The notes below the pieces were generated by a model. That model was given only the letters and a program-made list of their open reading frames with translations, made no database searches and was not told the origin of the DNA. Of a DNA stretch of 64,000 nucleotides, positions 37,384 to 41,017 are shown in pieces. Source of the DNA: Chitinophaga niabensis (GTDB lineage: Bacteria; Bacteroidota; Bacteroidia; Chitinophagales; Chitinophagaceae). Positions within the stretch are counted from its first letter, which is position 1. The number at the start of each line of letters is the position of its first letter. The stretch lies in contig JAFIGY010000020.1 of the NCBI GenBank assembly GCA_017849435.1, positions 307,425-371,424 on the forward strand, given 5' to 3'. The position numbers and the translations under genes were made by a program.

Positions 37384-37404
37384 GCAAGAACCGGGTTCTC
37401 CGGC
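37384..37404 (+). promoter_or_regulatory. Candidate Ada-type operator, copy 1
   Basis: The 21-bp block starts GCAAGAA, then C, then CGGGTT, C, TCCGGC. It is identical at 19 of 21 bases to the block at 39443-39463, and both end exactly 14 bp before a -7-like element. It contains the dyad AGAACC-G-GGTTCT and covers the -33 position, as expected for an activator replacing a poor -33 element. The likely binder is the AraC-type regulator it precedes. Confidence 0.7.
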
Positions 37405-37418
37405 AAACTAATTCATCC

Positions 37419-37426
37419 TACTTTCG
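37419..37426 (+). promoter_or_regulatory. -7-like element of AraC-methyltransferase gene
   Basis: TACTTTCG differs from TAnnTTTG at one base. It lies 14 bp after the operator-like block and 26 bp before the ATG. The -33 position reads TTCT within the block, so the promoter seems activator-dependent. Confidence 0.5.
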
Positions 37427-37452
37427 TGTTGTAAGATCAAACATAAACGATC

Positions 37453-38319
37453 ATGGAAACGCAACAGGAGATCAATTATAACAGGATAGCGGCGGCGATC
37501 GATTTCTACCGGAACAATTTCAGGGAGCAGCCTTCCCTGGAAGACGCGGCGGAACATGTGCACCTGAGCCCTTTCCATTTCCAGCGGATGTTCAGGGAGT
37601 GGGCAGGCGTTACACCCAAGCAGTTCCTGCAGTACCTTAGCCTGGAACATGCCAAACATATCCTGAAAGGCGAACAGGTTACATTATCGGATGCTGCTTT
37701 TGAAACCGGGCTCTCCGGAACCGGCCGCCTGCACGACCTTTTCATTAAAGTGGAAGGAATGACGCCGGGCGAATACAAGAACGGCGGCGAACAATTGACG
37801 ATCAACTACAGCTTCGCGGAAAGTCCGTTCGGGCAGATCATTGTAGCATCTACACATAAGGGCATCTGCTATATGGCTTTTGCGGAAGATGATCACGAAG
37901 CTGCCTTCCGGGCTTTGGTACAACATTTCCCGAATGCTGCATTCCGGCAGCTGTCCGACCGGTTCCAGCAGGATGCCTTGTTCATTTTTACGCAGGACTG
38001 GAGCAGGCTTAGCGAGATCAAGCTGCATCTCAAGGGCACACCATTCCAGATCAAAGTATGGGAAACGCTGCTCAAAATACCGATGGGCGGCCTCAACACC
38101 TATGCCTCCATTGCCAGGAAGATCCGGCATCCGCAGGCATTCAGGGCGGTGGGTACCGCAGTAGGCCAAAACCCGGTAGCCTTTCTCATCCCCTGCCACC
38201 GGGTCATCAAAGCCAACGGGGAACTGGGGCATTATCATTGGGGAGATACGCGCAAATCAGCCATGATTGGCTGGGAAGCGGCTAAAATGTACCAAATAAC
38301 GGAGAAGCATGTACGATAA
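37453..38319 (+). CDS. AraC-type regulator fused to O6-alkylguanine-DNA methyltransferase (Ada without its N-domain)
   Basis: A 288-residue two-domain protein. Residues about 8-110 form an AraC-type double HTH (PSLEDAAEHVHLSPFHFQRM, then LSDAAFETGLSGTGRLHDLF). Residues about 115-285 form an O6-alkylguanine methyltransferase with acceptor Cys248 in FLIPCHRV. Compared with E. coli Ada (354 residues), the N-terminal zinc/methylphosphotriester domain is missing. A free-standing version of that domain is encoded at 40775-41017. It repairs O6-methylguanine by suicidal transfer and probably activates this cluster. It overlaps alkB by 11 bp, so the two are translated from one transcript, and has an operator-like block upstream. 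Confidence 0.92.
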   Translation: METQQEINYNRIAAAIDFYRNNFREQPSLEDAAEHVHLSPFHFQRMFREWAGVTPKQFLQYLSLEHAKHILKGEQVTLSDAAFETGLSGTGRLHDLFIKVEGMTPGEYKNGGEQLTINYSFAESPFGQIIVASTHKGICYMAFAEDDHEAAFRALVQHFPNAAFRQLSDRFQQDALFIFTQDWSRLSEIKLHLKGTPFQIKVWETLLKIPMGGLNTYASIARKIRHPQAFRAVGTAVGQNPVAFLIPCHRVIKANGELGHYHWGDTRKSAMIGWEAAKMYQITEKHVR

Positions 38320-38902
38320 TATATTGCCGGTGGACGGAGAGGCCCTCTTCTTCCCGGAGTTCTTCAGCGCAGCGGAAAGCGATCATTACCTCGAAACATT
38401 GACGGCGGATATCCAATGGAAGCAGGAACCCATCGTAATCGCAGGCCGGGAGATCATGCAGCCCAGGCTCACCGCCTGGTACGGCGACGCCGGGAAAGCA
38501 TATCGTTATTCCGGCGTCACGATGCATCCACATCCATGGACCTCACCACTCATCGCTATCAGGGAAAAGATCGAACCACTGGCGGAACAGGCTTTTACCA
38601 GCGCATTACTCAATTTATACCGGAATGGTCAGGACAGTATGGGCTTTCACAGAGATAATGAAAAAGAGCTGGGACCATTTCCCGTGATCGGTTCCGTCAG
38701 TTTTGGCGCCACCCGCACATTTCACTTTCGGCATTATCGTGATAAATCCCTCAAACGAACGATCCCGCTCACCCACGGCAGTTTCCTGCTCATGCGGGGC
38801 GCTACGCAACATCACTGGCTGCACGGCATTCCAAAAGAACCTGCTGTCACGGGAAGCCGTATCAACATCACCTTCCGCACAATTATTTTTCCGTATAGCT
38901 AG
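38309..38902 (+). CDS. alkB: AlkB-type alpha-ketoglutarate-dependent dioxygenase
   Basis: A 197-residue Fe(II)/2OG dioxygenase that oxidatively demethylates 1-methyladenine and 3-methylcytosine in DNA. Iron ligands: His114 and Asp116 in GFHRDNE, and His172 in HHWLHGIP. Arg184 and Arg190 in TGSRINITFR bind 2OG, the AlkB signature RxNxTFR. It has the ALKBH2/3-like short form. It starts 11 bp inside the preceding regulator gene, implying tight translational coupling, and its last 20 bp overlap the convergent thioredoxin gene. Confidence 0.93.
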   Translation: MYDNILPVDGEALFFPEFFSAAESDHYLETLTADIQWKQEPIVIAGREIMQPRLTAWYGDAGKAYRYSGVTMHPHPWTSPLIAIREKIEPLAEQAFTSALLNLYRNGQDSMGFHRDNEKELGPFPVIGSVSFGATRTFHFRHYRDKSLKRTIPLTHGSFLLMRGATQHHWLHGIPKEPAVTGSRINITFRTIIFPYS

Positions 38903-39383
38903 CCGGTGAAAGTGCCACCGGCGACCACTGCTTCAGCATATCCCTGATCTTCTTCTCGTCATAACTGTCCGCATCTTCCAGCAAACCGGTGTTCTGCGTA
39001 TGTAAACGGTTGCCCTTTCCATCGAGGATCACGAGTACAGGAAAACCAAAACGCTGCGGGAATCCCAGTTCTTTCAGGATATCCAGGTTCTTGTTCTCCT
39101 TGCTGTAATTCAGGTGATACACCACGTAATTCTTCTCTACATCCTGCTTTAACGCCGGATGATCTTCCACAAACTTGTACAGGCGTTTGCACCAGATGCA
39201 CCAGTTACCGCCTACCTGCACCATCAGGTGTTTGTTCTCTTTGGCGGCCCGTTGCAGTGCAGCCGTCATATCGGCTTTGGCATTGGCAGAGGGATTATAG
39301 ATATGTTCCAGGTCAGGCGCCTGCTGTGCCTTTGTACTGATGGTTCCTGCCATCACCAGCAGGAAAATAAAAAGTTGCTTCAT
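38883..39383 (-). CDS. Secreted thioredoxin-like protein (DUF255/thioredoxin_7 type)
   Basis: A 166-residue protein with a signal peptide (KQLFIFLLVMAGTISTKA-QQ) and the motif GGNWCIWCKRLYKF, redox pair Cys62-Cys65. The cis-Pro region is FGFPVLVILDGKGNRLHTQN. An upstream in-frame ATG (39413) would put ten extra residues before the signal peptide and is not preferred. It is on the opposite strand inside the alkylation-repair cluster, convergent with alkB and divergent from the second methyltransferase gene. It is probably periplasmic and probably unrelated to repair. Confidence 0.87.
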   Translation of the reverse strand: MKQLFIFLLVMAGTISTKAQQAPDLEHIYNPSANAKADMTAALQRAAKENKHLMVQVGGNWCIWCKRLYKFVEDHPALKQDVEKNYVVYHLNYSKENKNLDILKELGFPQRFGFPVLVILDGKGNRLHTQNTGLLEDADSYDEKKIRDMLKQWSPVALSPASYTEK

Positions 39384-39442
39384 GGTCGGTTCAGGTTTGA
39401 TTTGATAAAACAATTTACAACTATTTTCTTTCCATCAGGATA

Positions 39443-39463
39443 GCAAGAAGCGGGTTTTCCGGC
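39443..39463 (+). promoter_or_regulatory. Candidate Ada-type operator, copy 2
   Basis: The block starts GCAAGAA, then G, CGGGTT, T, TCCGGC: 19 of 21 bases match the copy at 37384-37404. It ends 14 bp before the -7 element TAACTTTG, the same spacing as copy 1, and its TTTT at 39455-39458 takes the -33 position. It sits in the 122-bp divergent gap, so it might also affect the thioredoxin gene. Confidence 0.7.
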
Positions 39464-39477
39464 GGATTGCATCGTGA

Positions 39478-39485
39478 TAACTTTG
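39478..39485 (+). promoter_or_regulatory. -7 element of second methyltransferase gene
   Basis: TAACTTTG is an exact TAnnTTTG, 20 bp upstream of the ATG at 39506. A transcript from here would begin about 39490, after the alternative TTG start at 39467, which is why the ATG was chosen. Confidence 0.7.
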
Positions 39486-39505
39486 TATCATTAAAACAGG
39501 ATCAT

Positions 39506-40063
39506 ATGCACACACACATTCAACTCGAAGAAATGACCGAAGCGGAATACCGCAATGGCGGAGCGCAGCTGGAGATCAGCTATGGTTTTGCCGAAAGTAT
39601 TTTCGGTCCGCTCATCGTAGCTGCCACCGCAAAGGGTGTATGCCACCTTGCATTCTATGATGGCACGCAGGAAGCAGCCCTGCAGACATTACAACAACGT
39701 TTTCCGAATGCCCGGTATCAGGCCCTGCTGGGCAGGATGCAGCAGCATGCCATCTTCCTGTTCACACAGGATTGGGAGCAGCCTGAACCGGTAACGCTAC
39801 ATGTAAAAGGCACGCCTTTTCAGCTGAAGGTCTGGGAAGCGCTGCTGCGTATCCCGAAAGGCCAGCTCTCCACTTACGGCACCATTGCCGGCATCCTGCA
39901 GCAACCCAACGCCTCCAGGGCCGTAGGTACGGCCATCGGCGACAATCCCGTGGCCTTCCTCATCCCCTGTCACCGTGTGATACGCGCCAGCGGCGAATTA
40001 GGAGGATATCACTGGGGACTTCACCGCAAAAAAGCCATGATTGCCTGGGAACTGGCACATTAA
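39506..40063 (+). CDS. ogt: Methylated-DNA-[protein]-cysteine S-methyltransferase
   Basis: A 185-residue O6-alkylguanine methyltransferase with acceptor Cys155 in FLIPCHRV and DNA-binding region ASRAVGTAIGDNP. It transfers alkyl groups from O6-methylguanine to itself. Its first 30 residues (EEMTEAEYRNGG, then ISYGFAES) align with the end of the AraC domain and the linker of the 37453-38319 fusion (EGMTPGEYKNGG, INYSFAES). It therefore looks like a shortened duplicate of that gene, keeping the promoter block. The start is set by the promoter at 39478. The next gene starts 13 bp downstream. Confidence 0.92.
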   Translation: MHTHIQLEEMTEAEYRNGGAQLEISYGFAESIFGPLIVAATAKGVCHLAFYDGTQEAALQTLQQRFPNARYQALLGRMQQHAIFLFTQDWEQPEPVTLHVKGTPFQLKVWEALLRIPKGQLSTYGTIAGILQQPNASRAVGTAIGDNPVAFLIPCHRVIRASGELGGYHWGLHRKKAMIAWELAH

Positions 40064-40076
40064 AACAGATGGTATC

Positions 40077-40778
40077 ATGAAAAGATTACAGGAAACAAAT
40101 TGGAACCGGGTAGCGGAAGATATGCACCGCCAGGGATACACCCTCATTCCGGATGTATTGCAGCCGCAGGAATGCGCATCACTGATCGCGGCCTATGATG
40201 CAGATCAGACCTACCGCAAAACGATCAGCATGGAGCGATACCGCTTCGGGCAGGGAACATATAAATACTTCGTGTACCCGTTGCCGGTATTGATCAACAC
40301 CATCCGGGAAACCGTATATCCTTACCTCGCACCCATCGCGAATCAATGGATGGAAGCATTGAACAACAATACCCGGTTCCCCGCCACACATGCGGAGCTC
40401 AAAGCCCTCTGCCAATCACATCATCAAATCCACCCTACCGTCCTCATCCTGAAATACGGCGCGGGTGGGTTCAATACTCTTCACCAGGATCTCTACGGAG
40501 ATATCTACTTTCCCATGCAGCTGGTGCTCTTCCTCAATGAACCGGGTGAAGATTATACCGGCGGAGAATTCGTGCTCACGGAACAGATACCCCGTGCCCA
40601 GTCCAAAGCCAACGTGCTGCAACCCCGGCGCGGAGATATGCTGCTGTTCACAACCAGCTTCCGCCCGGTGAAAGGCAGCCGGGGATATTACCGCGTGAAC
40701 ATGAAACATGGTGTAAGTCCCGTACACAGCGGGCAACGGCATACACTCGGCATTATCTTTCACGATGCATTATCATGA
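40077..40778 (+). CDS. 2OG-Fe(II) oxygenase (COG3826-like) in alkylation-repair cluster
   Basis: A 233-residue double-stranded beta-helix oxygenase. Candidate iron ligands are His136 and Asp138 in TLHQDLYGD, with His211 (NMKHGVSP) as third ligand and Arg221 (GQRHTLGIIFH) for 2OG. The family resembles COG3826, uncharacterised 2OG oxygenases seen next to ada and alkB genes; it is distinct from AlkB. The start at ATG 40077 leaves 13 bp after the methyltransferase stop, and the stop overlaps the next gene by ATGA. Placement suggests a role in reversing alkylation or a related oxidative repair, but this is inference. Confidence 0.8.
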   Translation: MKRLQETNWNRVAEDMHRQGYTLIPDVLQPQECASLIAAYDADQTYRKTISMERYRFGQGTYKYFVYPLPVLINTIRETVYPYLAPIANQWMEALNNNTRFPATHAELKALCQSHHQIHPTVLILKYGAGGFNTLHQDLYGDIYFPMQLVLFLNEPGEDYTGGEFVLTEQIPRAQSKANVLQPRRGDMLLFTTSFRPVKGSRGYYRVNMKHGVSPVHSGQRHTLGIIFHDALS

Positions 40779-41017
40779 TCCCGCATATCACAGTGAAGAC
40801 AAAAGATCTCCATGCGCTGATCAGGGCGGGCAGTATCCGCGTCGGCGGTAACCGCCGGCTGAAGATCTACGGCACTTTGCATTGCACTTCCGGTAAACGT
40901 ATGAAGCCGGAGAACCGGGTATTCTTCGAATCGGAAGAGGAGGCGGTGGGGCTGGGATACAGGCCCTGCGGACATTGCATGCGGGAGCAGTATAAAGTCT
41001 GGCGAAGCAGGAACTGA
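40775..41017 (+). CDS. Free-standing Ada-type zinc-binding domain protein
   Basis: An 80-residue protein made only of an Ada metal-binding domain. KIYGTLHCTSGKRM, then NRVFFESEEEA and GYRPCGHCM align with the Ada N-domain. Cys37, Cys65 and Cys68 correspond to E. coli Ada Cys42, Cys69 and Cys72. The position of Cys38, the methylphosphotriester acceptor, is Gly33, so zinc would need another ligand (His36 is next to Cys37) and methyl transfer in the Ada manner looks impossible. It overlaps the oxygenase gene by 4 bp and ends the second operon of the cluster. It may act as a DNA-binding helper of the AraC-methyltransferase, or have a different role. Confidence 0.85.
   Translation: MIPHITVKTKDLHALIRAGSIRVGGNRRLKIYGTLHCTSGKRMKPENRVFFESEEEAVGLGYRPCGHCMREQYKVWRSRN

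Follow-up and report, generated by a model that had tools for sequence, protein, structure and literature searches.

The window analysed here is a stretch of 64,000 nucleotides from Chitinophaga niabensis (contig JAFIGY010000020.1) that contains a cluster of five plus-strand DNA repair genes; this text concerns the short promoter element that precedes them and AdaC, the protein predicted to read it. The genes form two operons. Operon 1 consists of the gene for AdaC, which joins an AraC-type helix-turn-helix (HTH) to a methyltransferase domain, and an overlapping alkB gene; operon 2 consists of MGMT2, OxyNA and AdaZn, the last two overlapping by 4 bp (Table 1). Ahead of each operon lies a 21-bp block, GCAAGAACCGGGTTCTCCGGC (37384-37404) or GCAAGAAGCGGGTTTTCCGGC (39443-39463), and the two blocks are identical at 19 of 21 positions. 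Exactly 14 bp separate each block from a -7 element, TACTTTCG or TAACTTTG, respectively. An earlier note made from the sequence had described the paired blocks with their spacing, along with the five genes, their families and their operons; the window sequence confirms the blocks and the two-operon layout, and Pfam the families.

Table 1. Operator cores, -7 elements and genes of the two repair operons in window coordinates (aa, amino acids; 2OG, 2-oxoglutarate)
Feature	Position	Strand	Properties
Operator core 1, GCAAGAACCGGGTT	37384..37397	+	B box GCAA(G) and extended X box CGGGTT; inside block 37384-37404
-7 element, TACTTTCG	37419..37426	+	Its A lies 22 bp past core 1
AdaC	37453..38319	+	AraC-type HTH and O6-methylguanine-DNA methyltransferase, 288 aa, no zinc domain, Cada2-like regulator; Pfam PF12833, PF01035, PF02870
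AlkB-like 2OG-Fe(II) dioxygenase	38309..38902	+	197 aa, start overlaps the end of AdaC; Pfam PF13532
Operator core 2, GCAAGAAGCGGGTT	39443..39456	+	Inside block 39443-39463
-7 element, TAACTTTG	39478..39485	+	Its A lies 22 bp past core 2
MGMT2	39506..40063	+	Methyltransferase alone, 185 aa, no HTH; Pfam PF01035
OxyNA	40077..40778	+	2OG oxygenase of damaged-DNA type, 233 aa; Pfam PF09859, E 1.5e-78
AdaZn	40775..41017	+	Stand-alone Ada zinc-domain relative, 80 aa, three cysteines; Pfam PF02805, E 6.8e-8

Conservation of the block was evaluated in two sets of relatives. The first set comprises 147 genomes of the family, of which 64, the window's included, encode AdaC; the promoters of 60 relatives were fetched, and three genomes with partial or weak AdaC (G075, G124 and G130) were left out. 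The score of a promoter is the number of 11 fixed positions in the 14-bp core GCAAGWWNCGGGTT that it matches within 130 bp of the start; scores of at least 8 pass, and the -7 element plays no part in the score. The core passes at 60 of 62 promoters (58 of the 60 AdaC relatives and both window promoters), scoring 11 in 34 of them, 10 in 11, 9 in 12 and 8 in 3. At one locus where it fails (L064), OxyNA comes first in the operon, behind a box of its own. A -7 element of the form A..TT lies at a gap of 22 bp from the core in 59 of the 60 passing promoters, and the columns that separate the two carry almost no information; the -7 consensus given in the accessible parts of two published reports is TAnnTTTG (PMC9723704, PMC2483708). 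The second set, which overlaps the first by at least two records (L341 and L359), consists of 80 named AdaC loci from Chitinophaga, Niastella, Mucilaginibacter, Pedobacter, Flavobacterium, Aquimarina, Dysgonomonas and others. The box is present at 77 of these loci and the 22-bp gap at 72, and at the three loci that lack the box (L336, L337 and L341) OxyNA is located immediately upstream of AdaC. The search proposed in the earlier note, for the block upstream of ada/alkB-like genes in relatives, thus returns a conserved element in both sets. Conservation thus extends over the 14-bp core and not over the whole 21-bp block, as the right third of the block (CTCCGGC or TTCCGGC in the window) is unconserved among relatives. 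That promoter duplication alone produced the block was considered and rejected: the core recurs in 58 of the 60 fetched relatives and the neighbouring columns do not.

Pattern searches of the organism's own genome (5.0 Mb) used the reversed pattern as a control. Allowing up to three mismatches, the 21-mer occurs three times, two of these being the window blocks, and its control does not occur. The 14-bp core alone finds only the two window sites, but its reversed control likewise yields two, which means that the core is not rare on its own. The core combined with the -7 element, at up to two mismatches, again finds only the two window sites, with one for the control. What places the block beyond chance is its conservation in relatives at a fixed spacing. 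A combined pattern (the core, 20-24 bp and ANNTTTG) has 51 sites in the 147 family genomes compared with 2 for its reversed control, and 44 of the 51 are at gap 22. Across 395 genomes sampled from the phylum, 67 have AdaC, some of the matches being partial, and 39 have a strict pattern, 35 of them together with AdaC. A weight matrix was also built from 58 promoters of the first set and applied to 1200 shuffled upstream regions, redrawn for each threshold, where it gave 2, 7, 1 and 1 matches at scores of 8, 10, 12 and 14. Among other upstream regions of the same loci, 9 of 350 reached a score of at least 12; by eye these appear to precede two OxyNA genes, three hydrolases and one gene each of AlkA-like, AlkB-like, DUF1203-like and short-chain dehydrogenase type, and relatives of some of them were checked with Pfam.

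The combined pattern also outlines the content of the regulon. Of its 51 family sites, 27 stand directly before AdaC and 19 before other repair genes or regulon candidates. The 24 sites not in front of AdaC comprise the window's MGMT2 operon, five OxyNA genes, seven genes for a flavin-reductase-like protein (PF01613), three for an alpha/beta hydrolase, and one each for AlkB, a HhH-GPD/AlkA_N glycosylase, DUF1203, a SnoaL-like protein and a PLP decarboxylase; the remaining three, all with off-type spacing (G114, G079 and G003), were left out of the gene calls. OxyNA was found in 25 genomes: 10 copies have the box directly upstream, 12 follow AdaC within less than 200 bp, one lies 0.8 kb behind AdaC, one is the window's own, and one (L225) has neither box nor AdaC ahead of it. 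The flavin-reductase-like protein occurs in nine genomes, and all eight copies with a promoter of their own (L233-L240) carry the box, while the ninth lies behind AdaC; two distant paralogues (38-41%) have no box. Against a baseline of 64 AdaC genomes in 147, AdaZn falls within AdaC genomes in 29 of 29 cases, OxyNA in 24 of 25 and the flavin protein in 9 of 9, with tail probabilities, not corrected for kinship, of 3e-13, 2e-9 and 4e-4. A DUF1203-like gene sits directly 3' of AdaC in four Aquimarina loci (L352, L387, L390 and L397), and in L170 the box stands ahead of a DUF1203 gene.

The closest described counterpart of AdaC is Cada2 of Caulobacter, reported in PLoS Biology in 2024 (PMC10957082), which by title and opening of the abstract is the only paper on Cada2 among the matches listed. 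According to the accessible part of that paper, from which all statements on Caulobacter here are drawn, Cada2 consists of an HTH and a methyltransferase without a zinc domain, is switched on by methylation of the cysteine in its PCHR motif (Cys267) and contacts RpoA. Its operator, determined by chromatin immunoprecipitation sequencing, is GCAA plus CGG with an AT-rich 3-bp spacer, and both RLHD and the B-box arginines are required for promoter binding. Cada2-like proteins were counted there in four phyla, Bacteroidetes included. AdaC has the same architecture, a SPFHFQR helix, a second HTH with RLHD and the PCHR cysteine, and its own promoter has the same half-sites (GCAA-GAAC-CGG at 37384). 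In 59 AdaC sequences (L107 and L117 left out), the positions equivalent to the E. coli Ada readers F114, H115 and R118 hold F in 40 and Y in 9, H in all 59, and R in 55 and K in 4. The four residues of RLHD are R in 59, L in 56, H in 55 and D in 55, and the equivalent of E. coli C321 in PCHR is Cys in 59 of 59 (PF01035 in the window protein, E 9.1e-29). A zinc domain was looked for in AdaC and gave no PF02805 match, and all 59 sequences have gaps at E. coli C38, C42, C69 and C72. AdaC thus shares every tested sequence feature of Cada2; at the level of sequence it is a Bacteroidota Cada2, a regulator class already described and missed by the earlier note. That note's proposal that the AraC-methyltransferase is the likely binder of the shared block gains support from the conservation at repair promoters and from the kept reader residues, and the predicted operator of AdaC is very probably the box GCAAGWWNCGGGTT.

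The regulon shares with that of Cada2 an alkB-like oxygenase and methyltransferases. MGMT2, a methyltransferase with neither HTH nor zinc domain behind the same operator as AdaC, resembles the methyltransferase-only Cada3 of Caulobacter (PMC10957082, as far as available) and sits on a long branch. The system described here differs in its extended X box, CGGGTT(K), and in the constant distance of 22 bp between box and TAnnTTTG -7 element. Its regulon additionally takes in the PF09859 oxygenase, the flavin-reductase-like protein, the hydrolase, DUF1203 and a zinc protein that lacks Cys38; a fusion of A-box domain and methyltransferase of the Cada1 type is absent from the window. Promoter geometry, regulon content and a degenerate zinc partner are what the Bacteroidota loci add to the known Cada2. 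Literature searches, with most subscription journals outside their reach, turned up no publication that describes this operator from Bacteroidota.

The comparison extends to E. coli Ada, with which AdaC shares an AraC-type HTH with B-box readers, a methyltransferase, autoregulation (predicted here) and an alkB gene in the same operon. In the ada promoter of E. coli, AAT(N6) is followed by GCAAGATT, which many boxes here contain as well, so that the left half of the box corresponds to the classical B box; the earlier note did not recognize GCAA as such. Of the E. coli promoters retrieved (ada, alkA and aidB), ada alone enters this comparison. In the accessible part of a published report (PMC3788762), E. 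coli Ada reads the B box with F114, H115 and R118 and the A box with R45 and R71. Whereas E. coli Ada unites zinc, AraC and methyltransferase domains in one protein, AdaC lacks the N-terminal zinc sensor and the A-box readers. Its second half-site is a downstream CGGGTT rather than the upstream AAT of the E. coli Ada box AAT(N6)GCAA, and its second recognition helix has R-L-H-D in place of S-Y-Y-R. The window blocks have no AAT six bases before GCAA, carrying ATGAGTTCC and TCAGGATA there, and AAT(N6) is not conserved in the promoters of relatives.

Taken together, the box, its conservation and spacing, the genes and the reading residues observed here argue that both operons very probably belong to a Cada2-type adaptive response to DNA methylation driven by AdaC. 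Binding, the methylation switch at Cys248 and activation would proceed by analogy with Caulobacter. AdaC would repair O6-methylguanine by moving the methyl group to Cys248, the cysteine of PCHR, and the methylated protein would bind, or act from, the box, with the first HTH (SPFHFQR) reading GCAA and the second (RLHD) reading CGG(GTT). The box spans roughly -47 to -34, upstream of the -7 element; from there AdaC would function in a class II-like manner, as an activator that replaces a good -33 element. It would turn on its own adaC-alkB operon and the MGMT2-OxyNA-AdaZn operon, so that enzymes of direct reversal and of oxidative demethylation would rise together.

Several observations weigh against this reading. 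One AdaC promoter (L109) scores only 7/11. In the phylum sample, 32 of the 67 genomes with AdaC lack the strict pattern, and four genomes have the pattern without AdaC at that cut-off. The 58/60 recovery by the weight matrix is circular because the matrix was trained on the same promoters, so only its controls count. The GCAA-CGG spacer is 4 bp here compared with 3 bp in Caulobacter, or equal if the B box is taken as GCAAG. Base 4 of the box is not A in 6 of 8 AdaC loci with Ala or Ser at residue 41 (E. coli F114) compared with 0 of 126 others, but this covariation involves only 4 and 2 changes on the tree, too few independent pairs to be significant. When covarying pairs are ranked, HTH residues account for 9 in the top 20, 13 in the top 50 and 28 in the top 100 (expected, 38%), which leaves no enrichment past the first 20. 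The full-length zinc Ada encoded elsewhere in the genome (L207) could also take part. The association of residue 91 with box base 12 follows the tree. A structure model of AdaC (mean predicted local distance difference test score, pLDDT, 65.2; residues 238-288 below 50) was left unused and is silent on coupling between Cys248 and the HTH.

An alternative in which AdaC binds the box without a methylation switch, either as a constitutive activator or as a repressor displaced once its methyltransferase domain engages lesions, is unlikely, even though the box overlaps the -33 region, a possible repressor position, and Cada2 is modestly present at its own promoter in undamaged Caulobacter (PMC10957082, in part). 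The sequence-level identity of AdaC with Cada2, an activator switched by cysteine methylation, argues otherwise, as does a Myxococcus relative that functions in Caulobacter at 44% identity (same source). Far less credible still is that the box serves another regulator such as the genome's own full-length Ada, a protein of 347 aa with zinc, HTH and methyltransferase domains (L207 661-1704) whose gene lies far from the window cluster and has no box. GCAA is also read by E. coli Ada (PMC3788762, in part), but the own full-length Ada has G, R and R at E. coli 114, 115 and 118, so that two of its three B-box reader positions are changed. Full-length Ada occurs in only 11 of the 147 family genomes, seven of them with AdaC, which leaves 57 of the 64 AdaC genomes without it, and none of the 11 full-length Ada promoters reaches a box score of 10. 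By eye, four of these 11 promoters (L247, L249, L250 and L253) share a recurrent block, approximately CAANTTTCCGGTTGT, at -56 to -66 near a -7 element, which is possibly a candidate operator of the zinc-bearing Ada.

The earlier note had also read the cluster as a split Ada with a separately encoded zinc part. In such a reading AdaZn would be the sensor, methylated by phosphotriesters and activating AdaC in trans. AdaZn does lie inside the second box-led operon, is confined to AdaC genomes and, at 44 of the 80 named loci, has AdaC no more than 3 kb away. Like the N-terminal domain of Ada (N-Ada), it passes the PF02805 cut-off, and its model (pLDDT 91.5) is closest to N-Ada structures, the best Foldseek matches being 1u8b, 1zgw and 1wpk at probabilities of 1.00, 0.99 and 0.93; the top match, 1u8b, has an E value of 1.5e-3, and none is at or below 0.001. 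It differs from N-Ada in standing alone at 80 aa, in its N-terminal helix and in having Gly for Cys38. This Gly replaces the acceptor cysteine in all 28 readable homologues (29 genomes; L204 gave no sequence), as G33 it is invariant in alignment A3 (26/26), and 22 of the 28 have only three cysteines in all; in the window copy, His takes the place of the A-box reader R71. A PF02805 match is missing from 33 of the 64 AdaC genomes, or 30 of 61 once the three with a partial or weak AdaC are set aside. Since AdaZn has Gly at the Cys38 position and about half of the AdaC genomes have no Ada zinc domain, it is unlikely to be the general sensor of the response. According to the available part of the Caulobacter report, Cada2 is activated through its PCHR cysteine, and Cada1, an A-box domain joined to a methyltransferase, is dispensable for the response (PMC10957082). 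A sensor acting in trans was therefore rejected as the principal explanation; its chances are slight, and the split-Ada proposal is probably wrong. The earlier interpretation is thus partly upheld, in that its operator and likely binder are supported and its sensor half is not.

The adaptive response to methylating agents has mainly been studied in E. coli and, since 2024, in Caulobacter. A tentative extension of the AdaC-driven response, which we regard as doubtful, is that in Bacteroidota it gained a dedicated zinc partner of N-Ada fold without a methyl-accepting cysteine, perhaps an adaptor that binds lesions or scavenges methyl groups for AdaC or OxyNA, together with an arm directed against alkylating agents themselves (the flavin-reductase-like protein and the alpha/beta hydrolase). 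If this were true, it would, with the fixed 22-bp geometry, define a distinct Bacteroidota version of the response. With a 14-bp operator set at a constant distance from the -7 element, the response has a readable marker in Bacteroidota, from which regulon membership can be predicted genome by genome. Testable functions follow for the PF09859 oxygenases, for the flavin-reductase-like family, whose close homologues lie behind the box or in an AdaC operon in 9 of 9 cases, and for the zinc protein lacking Cys38. These findings also correct the view that an Ada protein lacking a zinc domain has to borrow a zinc sensor.

Two further observations concern the second operon. MGMT2 is 60% identical to AdaC from AdaC residue 97 onward, and a recent duplication of AdaC was considered as its source; in the tree it lies on a long branch, with Dysgonomonas nearest by path and no starred set. 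Between the two operons, a thioredoxin-like gene occupies 38883-39413 on the minus strand with its upstream side facing block 2, and as its start is close to block 2, that block lies in a divergent promoter region.

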